Shown here piece by piece: positions 9,292-54,333 of a DNA stretch of 64,000 nt (position 1 is its first letter; each line of letters starts with the position of its first letter). The position numbers and the translations under genes were made by a program. This DNA is from Parasphingorhabdus halotolerans (GTDB taxonomy: Bacteria > Pseudomonadota > Alphaproteobacteria > Sphingomonadales > Sphingomonadaceae), in the NCBI RefSeq assembly GCF_012516475.1, contig NZ_CP051217.1, positions 2,604,001-2,668,000 on the forward strand, given 5' to 3'. The notes below the pieces were generated by a model. The model was not told the origin of the DNA. It searched no databases and saw nothing but the letters and a program-made list of their open reading frames with translations.

Positions 9292-9568
9292 ACTTTAGTT
9301 TGGCATTGCGCGCCGGACGCTTATTTCGCCCTGCCGGAGGCTTTCGCTTAGCGAACTGCCGCGAGACACGGCGTTTGAGGCAAGATAAGTTGTGCGCTGC
9401 AACGAAAAATTGCTTTTTTGTTACGAATCTGTTAAAACCAATATCAGAAAGCGGCTGAACGGGGGAAGTTCGGTCGCTCTTGTATATGGTCGAAAGGATT
9501 TTTTCGTCGGGGTTTGAATAGTTTGAACGAAACTATCCATAATTTTTCAAGAATCAGAAAGGCTTTTT

Positions 9569-10099
9569 ATGGCTGCGAATGTGCTGCTCTTTGATGTGGG
9601 CGATTATGTTGTATATCCGAAACACGGTGTAGGCCGGGTGATTGAACTGCAAAATGAAGAAATTGCAGGGATGCAACTCGAACTTTACGTGCTGCGCTTC
9701 GAAAAGGAACGCATGACATTGCGTGTTCCAACCAACAAGGCAGAAGGCGTCGGGATGCGTAAATTGTCTTCCGACAAAACGCTCAAGGAAGCGCTTGAAA
9801 CGCTTAAAGACAAGCCAAAGGTCAAGCGCTCCATGTGGTCCCGCCGGGCGCAGGAGTATGAAGCGAAGATCAACTCCGGTGATCTGGTTTCGATTGCCGA
9901 AGTGACCCGCGATTTGTTCCGCGCTGACGATCAGCCAGAGCAGAGCTATTCCGAGCGGCAGATTTTTGAAGCAGCGTCCAGCCGTCTCGCCCGTGAACTG
10001 GCAGCGATGGAAGAAACCGACGAGCCAACCGCGCTGGAGAAAATTCTGGAAATCCTCAACATTGCCGCACCGCAATATTATGAGGTGAAGGAAGACTGA
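9569..10099 (+). CDS. carD: CarD family transcriptional regulator
   Basis: A 176-residue CarD/CdnL protein that binds the RNA polymerase beta subunit through its N-terminal Tudor-like domain (DVGDYVVYPKHGVGRV at residues 9-24) and stabilises open promoter complexes with its helical C-terminal DNA-binding domain (from about residue 75). An AGAAAGG ribosome site precedes the ATG. A 277-base gap upstream holds no gene that I can see, leaving room for its own promoter, and a strong terminator follows the stop. The partner subunits RpoB/RpoC are encoded 22 kb further on in this same window. Confidence 0.95.
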   Translation: MAANVLLFDVGDYVVYPKHGVGRVIELQNEEIAGMQLELYVLRFEKERMTLRVPTNKAEGVGMRKLSSDKTLKEALETLKDKPKVKRSMWSRRAQEYEAKINSGDLVSIAEVTRDLFRADDQPEQSYSERQIFEAASSRLARELAAMEETDEPTALEKILEILNIAAPQYYEVKED

Positions 10100-10145
10100 T
10101 ACATTTCTTTTGATCGAAGCTCCTCGCTGCTTCATCGAAATATCC

Positions 10146-10178
10146 AAAAAGCTGCCGCAGAAATGCGGCAGCTTTTTT
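10146..10178 (+). terminator. rho-independent terminator of carD
   Basis: A perfect stem GCTGCCGCA / TGCGGCAGC around a GAAA tetraloop, preceded by five A and followed by six T. It lies 46 bases after the carD stop. Confidence 0.95.
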
Positions 10179-10220
10179 GTATCGACAAACAATAGTTGAA
10201 TATCCGATATCACCGTGTTA

Positions 10221-29208: not shown

Positions 29209-31104
29209 CTATATGTTCGTGCTGGTCGGGATCAGGCTGGGTTGCAGATATGTATAGGGATGCATTCGCTGCTTGTTGCGGGCAATAATCCGCGCTTCAA
29301 CGGCCCGCAGGCCAGCTTGAAAGCGTGCCAGAGGCCCTTCACTTTCCGTAATCACCGCATCCCGGAACCATTGCTGATAGGGGAAGCGATTGGTTTGATA
29401 TTCGCCAAGCGGCCGATAGTAAACCGAACCTAACAGAATTAATGAGCTTTGCTGCACTAGAGCCAGAGACATCGGCGGCATATAGTTGAGCCACTCCTGT
29501 TTATCATGACCTTGTTGCTCTGTCGGGGCCGCTGTCCAGCCACCGCCGGTTATTGCTGGGGCAAAGGCCATAAGAGATTTTTGCGGAAAATTAACCGCCG
29601 CATGTTGGGCGCTGGCGGTGAATATGATCATCGTGCACACATCGACCAACTGCTCGCGCGATGTGATTGCTGTAAAACCCGCAACATGGCCTTCGCATGC
29701 AATCGATTTAGCCCAGTCAGCGAGCTCGGTGTCGCCGGTGATGGCGTCATCATCTGCATAATAGACATTGATATATTGCTGTGCCCAGTCGTGGATAGCA
29801 TCCCACACCAGCCGCGCATCATCGCGGTAAGGAAAGTCGGGCAGCTTGGTAGAATCGCCGACAGCGCGTTTTGCCATGTCGTTGTGCAACATCTTGTCAT
29901 AAAAATCGAAAGACAGGCGTGCTTTGACCGCAGCCATCTGGCTGGATGTGATCGTCCCGCCAAAGAAGGCGTCTATCGGACCGCCTTTATTGATCAATGT
30001 CTGTGTTGCAAGATTGTTGATAAACAAAGTGCCTTCAAAATGCGGCACAAGCAGCGACCAGAGAGGGTGTTTATTGGCAAGGTTTCGCCGGGTGGCAACC
30101 GCAATGGCCTCGCTCACCAGATGCGTGTCGGCAAGATGCACAAACAGCTCATGGTAATTACAGTCGGCCACCTGAACGACGAATTTGGCTAGTTCCCAAC
30201 CCCATTTTCCAGAGGATGCAGTGGTCGGTGTCACGACCGGATACTGATTGTTGTCCTGACCGCATTGGATGGCAACCGGTTTCAAAGATGATCCGCCCGG
30301 AGGCACGGCGAACAAAGCCATTGGCTGATAAACATATTTGGCCTGGCCTTTCCAAACTCCGGCCGCCAAAATCTCCAACTCCGCATAGTCAAGCAAGTAC
30401 ACCCGACCATCAGCTAGGGCGGTCGTGAGATCATCACCCGCAATGGCTGCGGCATATTGCTCGGCGCTAACCGGGAAATTGTCGGGTACCGCATCAATAC
30501 CTTTGATCAGCATGGGGTTAGGCCCGGCGATGCGAAGGCGGGCAAACAGATCATCGTCCTGAAAGTTATAGGCGATCGCCGGTACGGGCGTGGTTTGATA
30601 GAGATTGCGATACGCTTCGATTGAGCGGGTATCGGCGGTCTCCACAGCTTTCAAAATGTCCATGATGATGTCGATAATATCACGAATTTCGTTGTCATGT
30701 TGTTTCAGTTGATCGATATCGGATTGCTGCTCTGCTTGATGCACTTCGGCTTCGAGATCAGTGATATCTTTCGACAGTGTGTGTTTTAACCGGATCGCAT
30801 CCACCGCGTTTGAAACTTCCTGCGCCACATGTAAGGCCTGATCGATAATCTCTTTCTCTGCAGCGCTCAGACCGGAGAAAATGGGCTGGGTATAAACGGC
30901 GGCGATATTCTTGATGATATCCAGGCCGACGTGCAGAACATCAAGCCACCACGCAATAGAAGGATCATCGTCGGACGGCATGGCTTTTGCCAATGGCACT
31001 CCAGGCAAAGCCTCCACTTCGGTAGTCCATTGATATTGCTCGCATGTGTTGGAAATTTGCTGCTCGCGTTCCGTTTTTTGTTCGGGGCTGTCATTTTGCG
31101 GCAA
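29209..31104 (-). CDS. lipoxygenase (complete catalytic domain, no PLAT)
   Basis: A 631-residue non-haem iron lipoxygenase that would dioxygenate polyunsaturated fatty acids. All iron ligands of the family are in place: H318 and H323 (HELFVH), H501 and N505 (SAQHAAVN), and the C-terminal isoleucine I631 (PTSTNI). Flanking signatures agree: THLVSEAIAVATRRNL, HPLWSLLVPH, RIAGPNPMLIKGI. The N-terminal 170 residues are helical (long coiled stretch at about 80-150) and replace the PLAT domain of eukaryotic enzymes. No signal peptide is seen, so it should be cytosolic, unlike the secreted Pseudomonas enzyme. It stands alone, divergent from a diguanylate cyclase across 251 bases. The regio- and stereospecificity cannot be read off. 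Confidence 0.93.
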   Translation of the reverse strand: MPQNDSPEQKTEREQQISNTCEQYQWTTEVEALPGVPLAKAMPSDDDPSIAWWLDVLHVGLDIIKNIAAVYTQPIFSGLSAAEKEIIDQALHVAQEVSNAVDAIRLKHTLSKDITDLEAEVHQAEQQSDIDQLKQHDNEIRDIIDIIMDILKAVETADTRSIEAYRNLYQTTPVPAIAYNFQDDDLFARLRIAGPNPMLIKGIDAVPDNFPVSAEQYAAAIAGDDLTTALADGRVYLLDYAELEILAAGVWKGQAKYVYQPMALFAVPPGGSSLKPVAIQCGQDNNQYPVVTPTTASSGKWGWELAKFVVQVADCNYHELFVHLADTHLVSEAIAVATRRNLANKHPLWSLLVPHFEGTLFINNLATQTLINKGGPIDAFFGGTITSSQMAAVKARLSFDFYDKMLHNDMAKRAVGDSTKLPDFPYRDDARLVWDAIHDWAQQYINVYYADDDAITGDTELADWAKSIACEGHVAGFTAITSREQLVDVCTMIIFTASAQHAAVNFPQKSLMAFAPAITGGGWTAAPTEQQGHDKQEWLNYMPPMSLALVQQSSLILLGSVYYRPLGEYQTNRFPYQQWFRDAVITESEGPLARFQAGLRAVEARIIARNKQRMHPYTYLQPSLIPTSTNI

Positions 31105-31355: not shown

Positions 31356-32516
31356 ATGAGAGCGATACTAGATAACCTTTGGCGGCAGACGTTCCCACCG
31401 GTGCCCGAATCAATCAGCGACGAATTTGCCGTGCTAAGCGCGACCCGGCTGCAAATTCAGTCGCGCTGGCTTTCGCTTGCCATGTTTCTAACTATTCCCA
31501 TGGTGCTCTATGCCTCGATGCCGGGCACGTCGCCGATGATCCGCTTTGGTGTTCCGATTGCCGTCGGCTCGTCCTGCCTGATTTGCTTTCTTGCGTTGAT
31601 TAAGGATCGCAATGCATCCGGAAGCGCCGAATTAGCCAGAAAGTTCATCACAGAATCAGCGGTATTCTCCGCCACAATCTGCGTCTTGGTCAGCATATGG
31701 TGCCTCAATAGCTGGTTTAACGCGCCGCCGGAAATGAAGCTATTCTATCCTTTCACATTGGCCATGGGTTCGCTGACAACCATCTATTGCCTCTCCACGG
31801 TGCGCTGGGCAGCAATATTGAATATTGTGATCGGGATAATCCCAATAACGGCACTGCTGCTTTTGACAGCCGATCGCGTTTATATGTCGGCTGCTGCAAG
31901 CCTCACCATGGTGACGATATTCCTCTTTCGCATGATCACTCAGCAGAATAATCAATTTATCAAACTGTTGCTGCTGCGCCGCGAGATGCAAGACTTGGCA
32001 AATACCGATCCATTGACCGGTCTGCACAACCGGCGCGCTCTATCTGAATTTCTGGAACAAGAAATTGCGACTAATAAGAGTGAGGGCGGGTTTGCCATCG
32101 CGCTGATGGATCTCGATGGTTTTAAACCGGTAAACGATCAATATGGGCACGCGATTGGCGACAAGCTGCTTATTGAAATAGCGGGTCGCCTGCGCTCAGC
32201 TTGCGGCGATGAGGCCATTGTAGCGCGCATGGGCGGTGATGAATTTGCGATTTTGGTGCGCCATGGGTCGTCGCTGGAAAGCGCAACCATAGCCGACTAC
32301 GCGCTGGCTGCTCTTGCGCCGCCATGTCATATTGATGGCCATGTCATTCGGGTGGGGGCAAGCGTCGGTGTCGCGGAATGGCCAAATGATGGAAATACCC
32401 AGGAAGCCTTGTTTGAAACTGCCGATCGGGCGCTTTACGCTGCAAAAGCAGAGGTGTCCGGTCAACATGATACCGTCCGGCGCAAGAATCGCAGCGATCC
32501 TAAAAAAGCGACTTGA
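31356..32516 (+). CDS. membrane-bound diguanylate cyclase (GGDEF)
   Basis: A 386-residue protein with about six hydrophobic helices in residues 35-205 (for example LSLAMFLTIPMVLYASM, FTLAMGSLTTIYCLS) and a C-terminal GGDEF domain (DPLTGLHNRRAL, then MGGDEF). The intact GGDEF predicts synthesis of cyclic di-GMP at the inner membrane. The RxxD product-inhibition site that normally sits a few residues before GGDEF is missing (CGDEAIVARMGGDEF). No EAL domain is present. The sensor region belongs to no family I can name. A PilZ protein, a possible c-di-GMP receptor, is encoded at 59760. Confidence 0.92.
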   Translation: MRAILDNLWRQTFPPVPESISDEFAVLSATRLQIQSRWLSLAMFLTIPMVLYASMPGTSPMIRFGVPIAVGSSCLICFLALIKDRNASGSAELARKFITESAVFSATICVLVSIWCLNSWFNAPPEMKLFYPFTLAMGSLTTIYCLSTVRWAAILNIVIGIIPITALLLLTADRVYMSAAASLTMVTIFLFRMITQQNNQFIKLLLLRREMQDLANTDPLTGLHNRRALSEFLEQEIATNKSEGGFAIALMDLDGFKPVNDQYGHAIGDKLLIEIAGRLRSACGDEAIVARMGGDEFAILVRHGSSLESATIADYALAALAPPCHIDGHVIRVGASVGVAEWPNDGNTQEALFETADRALYAAKAEVSGQHDTVRRKNRSDPKKAT

Positions 32517-32634: not shown

Positions 32635-35600
32635 TTAGTCTTCCTTGCCAGTCGCTTCTGCTGCGTCTGCGGGCGCTTCGGCTTCATCGACTGGCGCTTC
32701 CGCCACTGCCACGTCCGCTTCTGCGGCCGGCGCTGCAAAAACATCCTCAGCGGTCGGTTCTGCTGTAACTGGAGCCGCAGCCTTGGCAACTTCTTCCGCC
32801 TTCAGATCTTCGGCAGCCTGCATGGCATCGACCATTTTTTGCTGTTGCGCCCGAAGAGCCGCATCGCGGCTGGTTGCTGCGATGCGCGCACGGTTCATGC
32901 CTGCACCTGTACCAGCCGGGATCAAGCGTCCAACGATCACGTTTTCCTTGAGGCCGATTAGCTGATCCTTCTTCCCTTCAACCGCCGCCTGGGTAAGTAC
33001 CCGGGTGGTTTCCTGGAAAGAAGCAGCAGAGATAAATGAACGCGTTTGCAGCGATGCTTTGGTGATGCCGAGCAATACTGGCTTACCTTCAGCAGGGGTC
33101 TGCTTTTTGGTTAGCTTGGCGTTATATTCCAGCATCTCTTCCTTGTCGATTTGCTCGCCAGGAAGAAGGGTTGTATCGCCACCATTGGTGATCTCAACTT
33201 TTTGCAGCATCTGACGAACAATCGTTTCAATGTGCTTATCGTTGATTTTCACGCCCTGCAGACGGTACACTTCCTGAATTTCCGCAACCAGATATTCGGC
33301 CAGAGCTTCAACGCCCATGACTTCCAAAATGTCATGCGGATCAGGCGAACCGGAAACCAGATTATCGCCCTTCTTCACAAAGTCGCCCTCTTGCACGTCG
33401 ATGACTTTTGTCTTCGGCACGAGATACTCAACCGGATCGCCCTCTTCCGGAATAATCGCGATTTTACGTTTTGCTTTATAATCGCGAACATATTCGATCC
33501 GGCCATCAATTTTGGCGATGATCGAGTTGTCCTTTGGAATACGTGCTTCGAACAATTCAGCAACGCGTGGCAAACCACCGGTAATATCACGCGTTTTCGC
33601 TGCTTCGCGAGAGACACGGGCAATAACGTCGCCAGCTTCAACAGTCTGACCATCGGCAGCTGACAACGTCGCTCCGTTGGCCAGCATGTAGCGACCTGCT
33701 TCGCCGCTATTCTCGTCCAGCAAAGTCATCCGCGGACGCAGATCTTCCTTGTTGGCTCCGCGGCCGGAAGCCCGATATTCCATGATTACGCGCTGGGCGA
33801 TACCGGTCGCCTCGTCGGTAATCTCGGTCATCGTTTTGCCTTCGATCACGTCCTGATATTTAATGACACCCGGTTTCTCGGTAATCATTGGCATCGTGAA
33901 CGGATCCCATTCAGCCAGACGATCGCCCAATTTAACCTTCGCGCCATCTTTGATCAGCACGCTGGTACCATAAGGCACTTTATCAGCAGACCGTTCGCGG
34001 CCATCATTGTCGATCACGGCAATAACACCGGAGCGAGCGAGTGACAGGAACCGTCCGTTCTTGTCCTCGATCACCGGCATGTCGCGATATTCAACCGTAC
34101 CCTCAGCAACGGATTCCAGATTGGATTGCTCGTTCAGCTGTGCTGCGCCGCCGATGTGGAAGGTCCGCATCGTTAGCTGTGTACCAGGCTCACCGATAGA
34201 CTGGGCAGCGATAACACCAACCGCTTCGCCGATATTAACCGGTGTACCGCGAGCAAGATCACGTCCGTAACAAGTGCCACAGACACCCATTTTGGATTCG
34301 CAAACCAGAGGAGAGCGAATGCGAGCCGACTGAATTCCGAGTTCTTCGATCACCTTGATGGCTGCTTCGTCAAGCAATGTGCCCGATTTGATCACAACGC
34401 TGTCGTCTTTGCTGTCTACAATATCTTCAGCCATAGTCCGGCCCAAAATACGTTCGCCCAAGGATGCGATAACCGAACCGCCCTGAACAATCGCTTTCAT
34501 CTCCAGCGCGTTTTCAGTCTTACAATCGTCTTCAACGATCGTACAATCCTGCGAAACATCAACGAGACGGCGGGTCAGATAGCCCGAGTTAGCGGTTTTC
34601 AACGCCGTATCCGCGAGACCTTTACGCGCACCGTGGGTGGAGTTGAAATACTCAAGAACCGTCAGGCCTTCCTTAAAGTTCGAGATAATTGGTGTTTCAA
34701 TAATCTCGCCAGAAGGTTTCGCCATCAAGCCGCGCATACCGCCAAGCTGCTTCATCTGCGCTGGCGAACCACGCGCACCGGAGTGGCTCATCATGTAAAT
34801 CGCGTTGATCTCTTTTTCGCGGCCATTCTCGTCGAGCGGGGTTGCCGCCAGTTCGTCCATCATCGCATTCGCAACCGTGTCACCACAGCGCGACCAGGCG
34901 TCAATAACCTTGTTATATTTTTCCTGCTGGGTGATCAGGCCGTCTTGATACTGCTGCTCGTAGTCAGCCACCAAAGCGCGGGTTTCGTCCACTGTTTTGT
35001 CTTTGGAGTCCGGGATGATCATATCATCCTTACCAAAGGAGATGCCGGCCTTGCAGGCATGGCGGAAGCCAAGGCCCATGATCGCATCGGCAAACAGCAC
35101 TGTGTCTTTCTGTCCAGTGTGACGGTAAACCTGATCGATCACATCACCGACTTCTTTCTTCGTCAGCAAGCGGTTTACAATGTCAAACGGTACCTTGTGC
35201 GATTGCGGCAAACATTCCGCAATCAGCATCCGGCCCGGGGTTGTTTCAAACCGCTTCATGATTTCATTGCCGTCTTCATCGGTCTGAGGAACACGCGCGA
35301 TGATCTTGGAGTGGAGCGTAACCGCGCCAACTTCCAATGCCTGATGCACTTCGGCCATGTCGGTGAGCATCATGCCTTCGCCGGGTTCGCCTTTGCGATC
35401 CATTGTCAGATAATAGATGCCCAAAACCATATCCTGTGAAGGAACGATAATTGGTTTGCCGTTTGCTGGTGAAAGGATGTTGTTGGTGGACATCATCAAG
35501 ACACGGGCTTCCAGCTGCGCTTCCAGTGAAAGCGGAACGTGAACGGCCATTTGGTCACCGTCAAAGTCGGCGTTAAAGGCGGAACAAACCAGCGGGTGAA

Positions 35601-36948
35601 GCTGGATAGCCTTGCCTTCGATCAGTACCGGCTCAAATGCCTGGATGCCCAAACGGTGCAGCGTAGGCGCGCGGTTCAGCATTACGGGATGCTCGCGGAT
35701 CACTTCCTCGAGGATATCCCAGACTTCCTTGCGCTCTTTCTCGACCCATTTCTTAGCCTGTTTGAGCGTCATCGAAAGACCCTTGGCGTCGAGGCGCGCG
35801 TAGATAAACGGCTTGAACAGTTCAAGTGCCATCTTTTTGGGCAGACCGCACTGATGCAGTTTCAGCTCAGGACCGGTCACAATGACGGAACGACCGGAAT
35901 AGTCGACGCGTTTGCCAAGAAGGTTCTGCCGGAAACGGCCCTGCTTGCCTTTCAGCATGTCGCTGAGAGATTTCAGAGGACGTTTGTTTGCGCCGGTAAT
36001 CGTGCGACCACGACGACCGTTGTCAAACAGCGCATCAACGGATTCCTGAAGCATACGCTTCTCGTTACGGACGATGATGTCCGGCGCGCGCAGTTCCATC
36101 AGGCGTTTCAGGCGGTTGTTCCGGTTGATCACGCGGCGATAGAGATCGTTCAGATCGGAGGTTGCGAATCGGCCACCATCCAAAGGAACAAGAGGACGCA
36201 ACTCAGGCGGAATAACCGGAATAATCTCAAGGATCATCCATTCCGGCTTGTTACCAGAATCGATAAAACTTTCGACAACTTTCAGGCGCTTGATGATCTT
36301 CTTTGGTTTCAATGTGGATTTGGTAACCCGCAGTTCTTCCATCAGATCGTCGCGTTCCTGCTTCAGATCGAGATCCTGCAGCATGATCTTGACTGCTTCC
36401 GCACCGATACCGGCAGAGAAAGCGTCTTCGCCATATTCATCCTGCGCTTCGAGCATTTCGTCTTCGGTCAGCAGCTGGAATTTTTCCAATGCTGTCAAAC
36501 CAGGCTCGATAACGACATAGCTTTCGAAATAGAGCACACGCTCAAGCTGCTTGAGCTGCATGTCGAGAAGCAAACCGATGCGCGATGGCAGCGATTTCAG
36601 GAACCAGATATGCGCAACAGGAGCGGCAAGGTCGATATGACCCATGCGCTCACGGCGGACCTTGGTTACTGTGACTTCAACGCCGCATTTCTCGCAGACG
36701 ATGCCTTTGTATTTCATGCGCTTGTACTTGCCGCACAGGCATTCGTAGTCCTTTACCGGACCAAAGATACGGGCGCAGAACAGACCGTCCCGCTCTGGTT
36801 TGAACGTACGGTAGTTGATGGTTTCCGGCTTTTTAATTTCACCGAATGACCAGCTGCGGATGCGCTCAGGTGAGGCAAGACCGATTTGTATCTGGTCAAA
36901 TGTTTCCGGCTTTGCGATCGGATTTGCGAAATTTGTTACTTGGTTCAT
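32635..36948 (-). CDS. rpoC: RNA polymerase beta' subunit
   Basis: A 1437-residue beta' subunit. The N-terminal zinc finger ([20 protein letters not shown]), the active-site triad in [15 protein letters not shown], the bridge-helix/trigger-loop region and the second zinc site ([16 protein letters not shown]) are all seen. The last 45 residues form an Ala/Glu/Asp-rich acidic tail after the conserved end. The ATG has GAGG 8 bases upstream, within the last codons of the preceding 171-codon gene, from which it is separated by 2 bases. It is therefore translated after that gene rather than directly after rpoB. Confidence 0.99.
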
Positions 36949-36950
36949 AA

Positions 36951-37466
36951 TTATTTCCTCGACAATGCTAGGATTGCTTTTTCTAAAGACTTAATTCGAT
37001 CCCCAAAATCAAGCCAGTCAGGGACATCGGTCTGTATCTTCGATAATTTCAATCTGGAATGCTGCAATTTAACCCTACCTAACTCTTTCTTATACCTTTT
37101 CCTCGTAATTTCTGGATCGGACAGGTACGATTTAACTTCGGCCAAGTGATTGTAGGCTGTTGGGAAGTCCTCACAGGTACTTTTTGCCAGAAGCCCAAGA
37201 GATCTGAGAATTTCAGGTAAATCAGGGAAAGGCGGTTTGATGCCATCGGCGGGTTCGTCGCGTGTCCAACATGGATCTTCGAGTAATCGGACGAGGAATT
37301 GCTGGTCCGATCGGTCGCGTATCCATGTAAATCGGACGCCATGGCCGGAAATTGAGGCTTCACAATGCCCGAATCCGGAACGGCAACCTTCATCATTCCA
37401 ACCACCTTCTTCCATCAAAATTCCGAATTCCTGCACACGGTCAGCAGCAAGACCTTCGGCTACCAT
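36951..37466 (-). CDS. unrecognised protein inserted between rpoB and rpoC
   Basis: A 171-residue protein I do not recognise. The N-terminal half is rich in Gly, Glu and Trp ([16 protein letters not shown], then a segment [19 protein letters not shown]) and looks like a small alpha/beta fold; the C-terminal half is Lys/Leu-rich and helical. No signal or membrane segment is present. It fits tightly between its neighbours: 4 bases after the rpoB stop with GGAG 7 bases before its ATG, and 2 bases before rpoC, whose ribosome site lies in its last codons. By hand count 71 of 180 bases at 36961-37140 are G/C (39%) against about 58% in the adjoining end of rpoB, which suggests a foreign origin. Confidence 0.8.
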
Positions 37467-37470
37467 CGCC

Positions 37471-40400
37471 TTACTCCGCCGCTATCGCAATGCCGTCGCC
37501 GCCTTCTTCATCTTCGTCGCCGAAGCTGGAGAGTTGGACGTTGAGGCCGAGTGACCGCATTTCCTTGACCAGAACGTTGAAGCTTTCAGGCACGCCGGCT
37601 TCAAAAGTATCGTCGCCTTTGACGATTGCTTCGTAAACCTTGGTCCGTCCGATGACGTCATCGGATTTGACTGTCAGCATTTCCTGCAGCGTGTAAGCCG
37701 CGCCGTAAGCTTGCAGTGCCCAGACTTCCATTTCCCCGAACCGCTGTCCGCCAAACTGCGCTTTACCGCCCAGCGGCTGCTGCGTGACAAGGCTGTAAGG
37801 CCCGATGGAACGTGCGTGGATCTTGTCGTCAACCAAGTGATGCAGTTTGAGCATATAGATATAGCCCACTGTCACTTTGCGATCGAACTTGTCGCCGGTA
37901 CGTCCGTCATAGAGGTTTACCTGACCGCTACGATCCAGACCTGCCAGCTCGAGCATATCGGAAACATCGCTTTCATGCGCACCGTCAAACACTGGCGTTC
38001 CCATCGGGATACCATGCCGCAGATGGCCAACCATTTCGACAATCTCATCGGTATCGCGGCTGTCAATATCTTCATGATATTGCTCACCGTAAATCGCTTT
38101 CAGGCGATCTCTCACTGCGTCAGGCGGAGATGCTGCTTGCGGATCCGGGTTAGCCAGCTTCCACTCTTCCAGCGCTTTCGTTACCTGCTCACCCAAGCCG
38201 CGTGCGGCCCAGCCAAGGTGGGTTTCAAAAATCTGCCCGACATTCATACGCGAAGGCACGCCCAACGGATTGAGCACGATGTCTACCGGCGTACCATCTT
38301 CGAGGAAGGGCATATCTTCCTGCGGAAGAATGCGGGAGATGACCCCCTTGTTTCCGTGACGGCCAGCCATTTTATCGCCCGGTTGCAGCTTGCGCTTAAC
38401 CGCGACGAAGACTTTGACCATTTTCAATACGCCTGGCGACAATTCATCACCACGCTCCAGCTTCTCACGGCGATCTTCAAAGCGTTCGTTAATCTCTTTG
38501 ATCGCTTCGTCATATTGGCCGCGGGTCGCTTCAAAATCGGACTGGAACTTGTCGTCCTTGACCGCGATTTTCCACCAATCAACCTGCTCGAGTTCGGCAA
38601 GGCTTTCCTCGGTAATCGTCGCGCCTTTCTTCATCGGTTTTGGCGCAGAGGTTGCGGTTTGACCGATCAGCATGTCTTTCAATGCATTGAAGGTTGCACG
38701 GTTGAGGATGGCGCGCTCGTCATCTCTATCTTTCGTGAAGCGCGAAATTTCTTCGCGTTCAATCGCCAGAGCGCGTTCGTCTTTGTCGATGCCGTGGCGG
38801 TTAAATACGCGCACTTCAACGACAGTACCGGCAACACCGGGAGGCAGGCGCAACGAGGTATCGCGAACATCGGATGCTTTTTCACCAAAGATCGCGCGCA
38901 GAAGTTTTTCTTCCGGCGTCATCGGGCTTTCGCCTTTTGGGGTAATTTTGCCGACGAGAATATCGCCCGGCTCGATCTCAGCGCCAATGTAAACAATGCC
39001 GGCTTCATCAAGGTTGCGCAGCGCTTCCTCACCGACATTGGGAATATCACGCGTGATATCTTCGGGGCCAAGCTTGGTATCGCGCGCCATGACTTCAAAT
39101 TCCTCGATATGGATCGAAGTGAAGACATCGTCTTTCACGATACGTTCGCTGATGAGGATGCTATCCTCGTAGTTATAGCCATTCCAGGGCATGAACGCGA
39201 CGAGGCTGTTCTTGCCCAGCGCCAGTTCACCCATATCTGTCGAAGGACCATCAGCGATTGTGTCGCCTTCCTGAACCATTTCGCCCACCTTCACCAGCGG
39301 TCGCTGGTTGATGCAGGTGTTTTGGTTGGAACGCTGGAATTTTTGCAGCGTGTAAATATCCACGCCGGATTTGCCAGCTTCGACATCGCCTTGCGCGCGG
39401 ATAACGATACGGGTTGCATCGACTTGGTCGACGATACCGCCGCGGCGCGCCGAGATGGCAGCGCCGGAATCGCGGGCGACGGTTTCTTCCATGCCGGTTC
39501 CGACAAACGGCGCTTCGGCTTTCACCAAAGGCACAGCCTGACGTTGCATGTTCGATCCCATGAGTGCGCGGTTGGCGTCATCGTTTTCCAGGAAAGGAAT
39601 GAGCGAAGCTGCGACCGATACGAGCTGTTTCGGCGAAACGTCCATCAGGGTAATGGTGTCGCGCAGCGCCATAAGGAATTCACCGGCCTGACGTGAAGAG
39701 ACGATTTCTTCCACGAAGCTGCCGTCCTCATTAAGGTCAGCGTTTGCCTGCGCAACCGTATGCTTCTGCTCTTCCATGGCGGAGAGATAGACCACATCGT
39801 CAGTCACTTTATTGTCGACGACTTTCCGGTATGGCGTTTCGATAAAGCCGTATTTATTCACGCGGCTAAATGATGCCAGCGAGTTGATCAGACCGATGTT
39901 CGGGCCTTCCGGCGTTTCAATCGGGCAGATACGGCCATAGTGGGTAGGGTGAACGTCGCGGACTTCAAAGCCAGCGCGTTCACGCGTCAGACCACCGGGG
40001 CCCAATGCTGAAACGCGGCGTTTATGGGTAACTTCCGAAAGCGGGTTGGTCTGATCCATAAATTGCGAAAGTTGCGAGGAGCCGAAGAATTCGCGAACGG
40101 TTGCAACCGCAGGTTTCGCATTGATTAGATCGTTTGGCATCACAGTGGATACATCGACGCTGGACATGCGCTCTTTAACAGCGCGCTCCATGCGCAGGAG
40201 GCCAACCCGATACTGGTTTTCCAGCAGTTCACCAACAGAACGAACACGGCGGTTGCCAAGGTTGTCAATATCATCGACTTCGCCCTTGCCATCTTTCAGA
40301 TCGACGAGGGTTTTGACAACGGCAAGAATGTCTTCCTTGCGCAAAATTGTGTAATCATCCGGAGCATCCAGTTCGAGACGCATGTTCAATTTTACACGGC

Positions 40401-41874
40401 CCACTGCGCTGAGGTCATAGCGATCAGGGTCAAAGAACAGGCCTTCGAACAGCGCTTCTGCTGTTTCGCGGGTTGGTGGTTCGCCGGGGCGCATGACGCG
40501 ATAAATATCGGACAGCGCACCATCACGGTCATCCGCTTTGTCGACTTTCAGCGTGTTGCGGATCCACGGACCGGTGGTGACATGGTCGATATCCAGCAGT
40601 TCCAGATGATCGATACCGGCACCATCCAGCTTCTCGAGATTTTCAACCGTCACTTCGTCACCAGCTTCGATGTAAATTTCGCCGGTTTTCTCGTTAATCA
40701 GATCAAACGCGCTGTAGCGACCGAAAATTTCTTCTGTTGGAATAACGACATTTGTCATGCCGTCAGATTGGGCCTTGGCAGCGCCGCGTGGTGTAATCTT
40801 GGTGCCTGCCGCAAAAACGACTTCGCCACTTTCTGCATCGACAATATCAAAGGTCGGCTTCTGGCCGCGCCATTGCTCCGAAACAAACGGGATAGTCCAG
40901 CCGCCGCCGTTCTTTTTGGAAGCGCGCTTGTAAGTAATGCGATCATAAAACAGGTTGAGGATGTCTTCCTCGGAATAACCCTGCTTCAGGATGCCAGTGA
41001 TTTCAGCCGATTTGGTGCGGCCTTCATCTTCAATCTTGCCACCGATTTCAATCGCACCCATAGGTTCTTTGATGGTGATGCGATTGCCTTCGACCTCAGT
41101 GATTTCAGCAGGCTGCTTCATACCGCCAACGCGAACCATTTCGCCAACCTTGAACGGCGGCTTCTTTTCTTTGACTTCAAGAATGGCATCACCAAGCGAA
41201 CGCAGCAATGCGGTCACGGGCAATTTACGTTTCCGGTCGATACGGACGTTGACGATGTCTTTCGCGTCAAATTCAAAGTCCAGCCAGCTACCACGGTAAG
41301 GAATAACGCGGGCGGCGAACAGGAATTTGCCGGACGAATGGGTTTTGCCGCGGTCATGGTCAAACAAAACGCCGGGCGAACGGTGCATCTGGCTGACAAT
41401 AACGCGCTCTGTGCCGTTGATGACGAAGGTGCCGTTCTTGGTCATCAAAGGCATGTCGCCCATATAAACGTCTTGTTCTTTAATATCGAGAACCGAACGC
41501 GCTTCTGTTTCCGGATCAACTTCAAATACGATCAGGCGCAGCGTTACTTTCATCGGAGCAGCATAGGTGATGCCGCGCTGGCGACATTCTTCGACATTAT
41601 ATTTAGGATCTTCGAGCACATAGTTGACGAAGTCCATTTCGGCAGTGCCGGCAAAATCGCGGATCGGGAATACGCTGCGCAGTGTTTTTTCCAGACCGGA
41701 AACATAACCAACGGAAGGATCAGAGCGTAGGAATTGCTCATACGACTCGCGCTGCACCTCGATGAGATTCGGCATTTCGATGACTTCATGAATGTCGCCA
41801 AAGATTTTGCGAATACGCTTCTTGCGGGTTGGGGTCGGAGCCGTCGTTTTAACAGACGCTGCTTGGGTAGCCAT
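37471..41874 (-). CDS. rpoB: RNA polymerase beta subunit
   Basis: A 1467-residue beta subunit, about 125 longer than that of E. coli. The rifampicin region [15 protein letters not shown] / [14 protein letters not shown] is wild type. Other landmarks: [44 protein letters not shown], and the C-terminal clamp contact [19 protein letters not shown]. Residues of about 229-298, between LLRSLG and [11 protein letters not shown], have no counterpart in E. coli beta and read like a small beta domain. A promoter 230 bases upstream shows that rpoB is not transcribed from rplJL, which lies 10 kb away. Confidence 0.99.
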
Positions 41875-53203: not shown

Positions 53204-53379
53204 TTATTGGACAGGATGCACGCATTTAAGATACTCTGGTGGAAATTCGAGCGTGATTGCATCTGAAAAGTCTTGTGAATTGAATCGTTTCAAAGGTCCC
53301 CAACGTTCTCTCATTGCCCGGAAGATAAAATATATGAAGACAACCGCAACCCGATAGTAGCGATCAATACCACTTCTTA
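53204..53379 (-). pseudogene. C-terminal piece of a gene split by the IS element
   Basis: Reading on the minus strand straight out of the IS end gives SGIDRYYRVAVVFIYF and continues through RERWGPLKRFNSQDFSDA to VHPVQ and a TAA at 53204, about 57 codons with no start. If the IS and one 3-base target copy are removed, this frame joins in phase to the piece on the other side (VDL-R-SGIDRYY). The protein is unknown; the N-terminal piece is at 54369-54845. Confidence 0.75.
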
Positions 53380-54333
53380 GAGTCTGACCGATAATTATTC
53401 TATTTAATATCATTATCTTGCGATACGTCTCGTGAGGAGTTGGACGGAGGCCATGAAGATCCATGCCGTTGCCGAAGCGATAGATTGCTCGAAGTCCTTG
53501 GCAAGGCGGCGGTTGCGGTTCAACCATGCGAAAGTGCGTTCGACGACCCATCGGCGGGGGAGAACGATGAAGCCTTTTGCGCGATCTGACCGTTTGATAA
53601 TCTCGATGGTCCAGTCGCCGATTTTTGTCAGTGCCTTTCTGAGCTTGTCGCCTGCATAGCCGCCATCGGCGAAGACATGACGCAGCCACGGGAAGGTGGA
53701 ACGGATGTTGGCGAGCACAAGCGGCGCGCCATCGCGGTCTTGTATGTCGGCGCTGTGGATGACGGCATGAACCAGAAAGCCATTGGTATCGGTAATGATA
53801 TGGCGCTTTCTGCCTTTGGTCTTCTTGCCCGCGTCATAGCCGCGTATCCCGCCGCTTTCTGTCGTTTTGACCGCTGGCTATCGATGACACCAGCGCTGGG
53901 CGAGGCTTCACTGCCTTGCGCTATTCGCGCATCCTGGATCAGGTAATGGTTGATCCGCGCCCATGTGCCATCGTCGCGCCAGAGGTAAAAATAGTGCTGC
54001 ACCGTGGTTGCTGGGGGAAAGCCCGGTGGCATCATCCGCCAAGGCAGGCCGCCGCGCAGCATATACAGCATTGCCTCAACGATCCGCCGCATCGGCCATT
54101 TGCGCGGGCGGCCAACATGACAAGGGCGGGGCAGAAACGGTTCAAGCAAAGCCCATTCCCCATCGGTTAAATCACTTGGCAAACGCTGCTCTTTGCGGGC
54201 ATGTTGCATGCGGGTGGTATCAGTCCACATCATCGGTCCTTTGCGAAGTTTTGTCACTTGCGTTGAATCAATGACCTGGGAATGCGTCAAGCTAAACCGC
54301 TGATACCACTCAACTTAGTTTTCGGTCAGACAC
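53380..54333 (-). mobile_element. IS5-family insertion sequence, about 954 bp
   Basis: Ends carry inverted repeats GAGTCTGACCGATAA (53380-53394) and GTGTCTGACCGAAAA (complement of 54319-54333), matching at 13 of 15 positions. It encodes one DDE transposase on the minus strand, interrupted by a frameshift. The flanking trinucleotides are TAA (53377, read on the minus strand) and TTA (54336), both of TNA form but not identical, as in the TNA-targeting IS5 subgroups. It lies inside a gene in the rplA-rplJ interval. Confidence 0.88.
53413..54233 (-). pseudogene. IS5-family transposase, frameshifted
   Basis: Together the two frames make a transposase of about 270 residues. The N-terminal part (LPSDLTDGEWALLEPFLPRP, then VIDSQ, the first catalytic Asp) is in one frame and the C-terminal part (RSTFPWLRHVFADGGYAGDK with the second Asp, and RRWVVERTFAWLNRNRRLAK with the Glu) in the next. 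The shift falls right after VIDSQ at about 53870, where family members I recall continue SVKTTESGG. One missing base explains it. Slippage on the AAAA run there would also restore the frame at the same length, so a programmed -1 shift cannot be excluded. Confidence 0.85.

Follow-up and report, generated by a model that had tools for sequence, protein, structure and literature searches.

A gene between rpoB and rpoC

Few gene pairs stay together in bacteria as consistently as rpoB and rpoC. In the window (the whole 64,000-nucleotide stretch of Parasphingorhabdus halotolerans DNA analysed here), the gap between them is occupied by a 171-codon gene that runs from ATG to TAA on the minus strand, as read from the sequence and the list of open reading frames (ORFs). 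The locus comprises the following features.

37471..41874, minus strand: rpoB, 1467 codons, stop at 37471–37473; its C-terminus finds rpoB tails in relatives by tblastn
37474..37477, minus strand: GGAG within the last rpoB codons, likely ribosome site of the inserted gene (sequence)
37467..37470, minus strand: 4-nt gap from the rpoB stop to the ATG of the inserted gene (sequence)
36951..37466, minus strand: the inserted gene, 171 codons, a member of the rpoB–rpoC junction family (ORF and homology)
36954..36959, minus strand: AGGAAA, likely rpoC ribosome site, coinciding with the final two sense codons of the inserted gene (sequence)
36949..36950, minus strand: 2-nt gap from the stop of the inserted gene to the rpoC ATG (sequence)
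32635..36948, minus strand: rpoC, 1437 codons, with its ATG at 36946–36948 (ORF list)

These coordinates agree with the original prediction, which had described a 171-codon gene filling the gap with 4 nt before it and 2 nt after it; the likely ribosome sites also lie where they had been placed, at the rpoB stop (GGAG) and in the last codons of the inserted gene (AGGAAA). The A+T-rich part reported at 36961–37140 was recounted exactly, at 71 G/C of 180 bases. This value lies below the 180-nt minimum within rpoB and rpoC (81, among 837 sampled segments), and values of 71 or less occur in 53 of 6383 segments of the whole 64-kb stretch. The inserted gene is real, is located where it was said to be, and is foreign in look. 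No promoter or terminator of its own was seen in 36600–37800, as the two promoter-like sites detected there both lie on the opposite strand and the sole terminator-like site on the coding strand falls within rpoB. A search for RNA families at gathering threshold found none at the junction and one tRNA away from the site. Judging from the gene anatomy, the inserted gene would be expressed at polymerase level.

Coding statistics give an ambiguous picture. Among 20000 order-2 Markov sequences with the composition of the gene, 20 stayed open over the same length when read in one fixed frame. Codon use, which the original prediction had proposed to compare with that of the neighbours, places the inserted gene third lowest among 50 ORFs. 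Its amino-acid score (z 1.97) is the best of the six frames; the 38 control gene pieces, on which the score was itself trained, reach 3.1–6.5, and out-of-frame shadow ORFs range from −3.3 to 6.8, thereby enclosing the value of the inserted gene. The period-3 signal is 11.4 overall (20.6 in the first half and 4.7 in the second), compared with a minimum of 14.3 for the 38 genes and with 1.0 to 23.1 for six stretches taken as intergenic. Because the controls overlap non-genes, with shadow ORFs up to z 6.8 and intergenic stretches up to 23.1, these statistics decide little, and the case for a real gene rests on its relatives. Four out-of-frame ORFs at the locus matched no Pfam family.

An orphan by direct search

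Searches with the window protein against Pfam, NCBIfam and PADLOC returned no family up to E 10, and none of the Pfam or NCBIfam models for known RNA polymerase subunits and factors (omega, delta, epsilon and others) was matched within the same limit. A word-based search of 5.8 billion proteins, which requires shared 5-residue words and similar length, recovered only the protein itself. A search of 196 relatives gave only noise (best foreign E 0.02), phages, plasmids and viral contigs provided neither a match nor a donor, and the best E in a sequence profile search of the PDB was 0.25. At the DNA level, no second copy was found in the genome itself, where matches elsewhere span only 15–30 nt, and none was found in plasmids or in any of the 297 other genomes of a 298-genome family set. 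Several weak matches were discarded: of those seen in 385 class genomes, which came from 4 genomes (E 0.003–0.006), one is embedded in an unrelated 435-aa frame and the other three are interrupted by one to three stop codons, while two PHROG matches (E 0.1 and 0.33) were disregarded. An integron attC recombination site measures some 57 nt or more; none follows the ORF, with merely 2 nt between its stop and rpoC. A search of the open-licence literature, which also covered orphan genes, coupling and cassettes, yielded no report of a gene between rpoB and rpoC; the one paper returned for such a gene or for rpoBC in Sphingobium concerns gene-cluster methods (PMC3009537).

The orphan reading was dropped when a survey of the same junction in relatives revealed a homologous family. 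The earlier label of an unrecognised gene holds with respect to Pfam, NCBIfam and PADLOC, but the gene belongs to a family that recurs at the rpoB–rpoC junction. An apparently solitary "orphan" can thus be part of a genuine family that genomic position alone reveals.

The rpoB–rpoC junction in relatives

Of the 31 congeners searched, 28 had a usable rpoB–rpoC junction, and in all 28 the spacer measures 62–66 nt and contains no gene. Inspection of this junction in related genomes, as proposed at the outset, thus points to a lineage-specific, foreign-looking insertion. The survey was extended to 198 Sphingomonadaceae junctions, comprising the window, the 28 congeners, 122 other family members and 47 more Sphingobium; two further family genomes were fetched, with no rpoB in reach. 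Long ORFs occupy the junction in eight of the 198: the window, four Sphingobium genomes (G434, G303, G894 and G903) with ORFs of 143–184 aa, and G033, G265 and G314, three genomes that belong to a different genus. None of the remaining gaps exceeds 215 nt. Because Sphingobium junctions were added after ORFs had been seen there, the frequency of carriers among the 198 does not represent a random sample. A second, named and partly overlapping set gave 77 measurable junctions out of 80, of which only that of S. estronivorans (identical with G434) exceeds 250 nt.

A fast-diverging protein family

The genes of G303, G894 and G434, all located between rpoB and rpoC, were matched by sequence to proteins of S. 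baderi (P0003), S. amiense (P0004) and S. estronivorans (P0002), each named merely "hypothetical protein" in the database; P0003 equals the G303 protein at 183 of 184 residues. A profile built from the window protein (P0001) and the G303, G894 and S. estronivorans proteins returned six sequences, namely those four by construction plus P0005 and P0006, two unnamed proteins encoded on ENA and JGI contigs that measure 1.2 and 1.6 kb. The G303 protein aligns with window residues 53–171, reaching the C-terminus, with a BLASTP E of 1e-5 as a single comparison, and two further single comparisons of the window protein with family members gave 9e-7 and 6e-6. Identity of the window protein to the other members is 19–28%, P0002–P0004 included.

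Profile comparison, which the original prediction had recommended, found nothing in Pfam or NCBIfam, but was successful with the family's own profile. Against a profile of P0003–P0006, from which it had been excluded, the window protein scored 41.1 in hhalign (E 5.3e-6), whereas the best of 81 unrelated control pieces of up to 160 residues scored 17.7 (lowest E 0.052). Shuffled versions of the window sequence matched the real score in none of 2000 trials against P0003, P0005 and P0006, and in 4 of 2000 against P0004. On this sequence evidence, the S. baderi-type (G303) and S. amiense (G894) proteins, P0005 and P0006 are clear relatives of the window protein.

The two remaining Sphingobium ORFs are less firmly placed. 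Direct alignment with the window protein showed no link for either of them, since 592 of 2000 shuffles did equally well for S. estronivorans and 1386 of 2000 for G903, and scores against P0003–P0006 were reached by 31 to 123 and by 2 to 373 of 2000 shuffles, respectively. Their profile scores nevertheless exceed those of all 81 controls: that of S. estronivorans rose from 20.0 (best control 17.7) to 27.5 (best control 18.7) when the window protein was included in the profile, and G903 scored 24.9 and 25.2 (best controls 18.7 and 21.4), so that membership of both rests on profiles that in part contain the window protein. S. estronivorans (G434, P0002) is therefore considered a probable member and G903 a possible one. 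The S. estronivorans ORF is gene-like in both coding tests (z 3.69, period-3 29.1).

When 397 family genomes were searched with the six-protein profile, only its own members in G000, G303 and G434 were found, each at the junction; no copy away from it was detected. A search of 94 Sphingobium genomes with the G303 protein found G303, G894 and a weak match inside a 552-aa frame (E 0.004), and missed the ORFs of G434 and G903. P0003–P0006 share the C-terminal end SLSR[N/S]SK, the codons for which in G303 and G894 contain AGGAA and run into the ATGA of rpoC. Since this end is common to the G303 and G894 junction genes, it suggests that P0005 and P0006 may also lie at an rpoB–rpoC junction. The picture is that of a rare, undescribed and fast-diverging family of 143–184 residues, all located members of which reside between rpoB and rpoC. 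Its members have no Pfam or NCBIfam match above cut-off and none of note in PADLOC, where the six gave one weak match (mad2, E 0.015) and the window protein none.

AlphaFold2 returned a pLDDT of 34.7 for the window protein alone, a single-sequence model that was not used, and a pLDDT of 73.4 (pTM 0.68) for the same protein with the six-sequence alignment. The latter model predicts an N-terminal helix, a four-stranded beta-meander and C-terminal helices. A fold search with it gave no confident match among the solved folds of the PDB, and no viral protein at E 0.001 or below.

Junction anatomy and the native spacer

The tight fit on both sides of the window gene, a central point of the original prediction, recurs in most of the relatives. 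Relative to the rpoB stop, the ORFs start at +4 nt in the window, +3 in G303 and G894, −4 in S. estronivorans (a GTGA overlap) and +6 in G903, with the start codons of the relatives (TTG, GTG or ATG) chosen as the first fitting codon. Relative to rpoC, they end at +2 nt in the window, −4 in G303, G894 and S. estronivorans (ATGA overlaps) and +33 in G903. As in the window, AGGAA lies within the last codons of the G303 and G894 ORFs.

In the carriers, the native spacer has been replaced rather than interrupted. All 28 congener spacers (L002, L004–L030) hold, in their last 36 nt, a stem with at least three G-C pairs located 7–14 nt before the rpoC ATG. In the window, this hairpin is gone and a weak 5-pair stem with two G-C pairs remains upstream of rpoC. 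Folding energies of the last 36 nt are −2.6 in the window, −2.8 in G303 and G894, −5.8 in S. estronivorans and −2.4 in G903. The corresponding values are −6.0 to −10.1 for the empty spacers of congeners and −4.4 to −5.4 for four from Sphingobium that are likewise empty, and the new ends of the carrier junctions can fold into other stems. The stem in the empty spacers may regulate rpoC. The four empty Sphingobium spacers checked (L327, L326, L316 and L146) contain stems of the type CCCT-loop-AGGG. By eye, three other Sphingobium spacers, L275 (G880, 184 nt), L142 (G343, 160 nt) and L301 (G937, 93 nt), have a common stretch with the inverted repeat CGTTCGTCCTGAG ... CTCAGGGCGAACGG or a close variant.

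Composition, distribution and selection

In all five carriers (the window, G303, G894, S. estronivorans and G903), the ORF has a GC of 0.47–0.52 and a GC3 of 0.44–0.58; the GC3 of the flanks is 0.84–0.90 in Sphingobium and 0.62 in the window. The ORF is absent from 52 of 56 Sphingobium junctions, and a tree of these 56, with good support for 24 of its 53 inner branches, requires four changes to accommodate the four carriers (G903 included); well-supported branches force at least three of these changes. G303 carries the gene, whereas G907, with flanks 98.7% identical, has an 86-nt spacer. Between these two genomes, 3 of the 14 SNPs in 817 nt of rpoB fall in the last 19 nt (nominal p 0.0025, for a pattern noticed post hoc), which fits short-tract replacement and a recent gain or loss.

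The S. baderi-type and S. amiense pair (G303 and G894) is under purifying selection, with a dN/dS of 0.32 (bootstrap 0.21–0.46), compared with 0.81 and 2.15 for frames +1 and +2 over codons 1–123. Over the same codons, dS is 0.28, with 0.27 and 0.33 in the flanks; codons 124–165 are saturated. The window copy is known from one genome. In alignment columns 1–60, P0004 is 90% identical to P0003 and 51% to P0005, while in columns 112–166 it is 62% identical to P0005 and 38% to P0003; the S. amiense gene (L273 987–1541, G894) thus looks like a mosaic allele. Taken as a whole, the gene is neither present in all close relatives, its distribution being patchy, nor devoid of conservation, given its relatives and the one selected pair. 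The lineage-specific, foreign-looking and tightly coupled insertion that was first proposed has stood, with relatives now known at the same site; the recurring family could not be seen at that stage.

Possible origin and function

Most probably, the rpo operon hosts a family of cassettes that circulate horizontally. Entry would have relied on homologous recombination in the flanking rpoB and rpoC sequences, which are highly conserved, and its sole trace is the cluster of three SNPs between G303 and G907. The source was presumably an AT-richer donor pool, although none was found among the plasmids, phages and viral contigs searched. Once in place, the gene would be started by ribosomes leaving rpoB, and rpoC by ribosomes leaving the inserted gene, so that its production would keep pace with that of the beta subunits. 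Given what is generally known of translational coupling and Rho polarity, rpoC would depend on translation of the inserted gene; deletion or frameshift of the inserted gene would probably be hard without harm to rpoC.

The weakest step concerns function. The protein may act on RNA polymerase or guard it against an attacker that itself varies, for example a phage inhibitor or a peptide antibiotic, a role that would explain both the location and the fast change. Only its location connects the protein with RNA polymerase. A working analogy is provided by small hypervariable immunity or counter-inhibitor proteins, as the junction family is likewise small, fast-changing and patchy, with a mosaic-looking allele, although it has no known partner toxin or inhibitor. 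As for possible attackers, RNA polymerase is inhibited by lasso peptides, among them microcin J25 and capistruin, according to a review whose section on lasso-peptide expression includes Sphingobium japonicum in its species list (PMC7549694); this literature shows only that such attackers of RNA polymerase exist. In its most specific form, the proposal is a family of circulating guard proteins that recombine precisely between rpoB and rpoC, are made one-for-one with the beta subunits, bind the polymerase and block a phage inhibitor or a lasso peptide, a version that we advance only tentatively. With moderate confidence, we favour the broader view of an imported junction family that is coupled to rpoB and rpoC and is a candidate guard of RNA polymerase.

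A family that keeps replacing the spacer between rpoB and rpoC, coupled to both genes and under selection in the pair tested, would represent a hidden partner of RNA polymerase, a guard of it, or else a clear case of a gene that shelters in an essential operon. The last of these would be an immunity or selfish gene unrelated to RNA polymerase, for which the conserved flanks provide landing homology, the operon assures expression, and any loss cuts into rpoC. Shared site, coupling and patchiness would all follow, and such a passenger accounts for most of the same facts. The junction does take unrelated cargo, since an FkbM-methyltransferase-like gene also sits there in all three measured genomes of genus g3, which belongs to the same bacterial family (G033, G265 and G314; L044, L238 and L272), with the G033 copy matching PF05050 at E 2.6e-5. 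That gene is likewise an extra one between rpoB and rpoC, but it encodes a different protein, its gap of 914–917 nt is GC-rich (0.64–0.65), and it is not flush, keeping by eye some 50 nt of spacer before it and 70 nt after it, unlike the junction family. Purifying selection in G303 and G894 argues that the protein is used, although a selfish gene can also be selected. A sheltering passenger is possible, if rather doubtful.

Two further explanations fare worse. The frame could be random DNA in the spacer that is kept open merely to avoid Rho-dependent polarity, the protein itself being inert; the weak coding statistics of the window gene, its orphan status in direct searches and its precise coupling are what such bridging DNA would look like. 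However, significant homologs occupy the same site, dN/dS in the G303/G894 pair is 0.32, and the model folds once relatives are added. This explanation was dropped as the main one once the relatives had been found, is largely refuted for the G303 and G894 members, and strikes us as scarcely credible. An old gene, inherited by these genera from their ancestor and then lost repeatedly, would fit the occurrence of members in two genera, and in G303/G894 the dS of the gene (0.28 over codons 1–123) is close to that of the flanks (0.27–0.33). Such an ancestry is at odds with the absence of the gene from every measurable congener (28 of 28) and from most Sphingobium junctions (52 of 56), with the four changes needed on the tree (at least three on well-supported branches), with the AT-rich composition, and with the near-identical neighbour without the gene (G907), all of which make it very unlikely.

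Other features of the window

Elsewhere in the window, two ORFs on the minus strand (53204–53689 and 9554–10213) have low host codon scores and no Pfam family at E 0.001. A lipoxygenase gene (29209–31104, minus strand; PF00305, E 5.2e-66) adjoins a gene for a GGDEF protein (31356–32516, plus strand).
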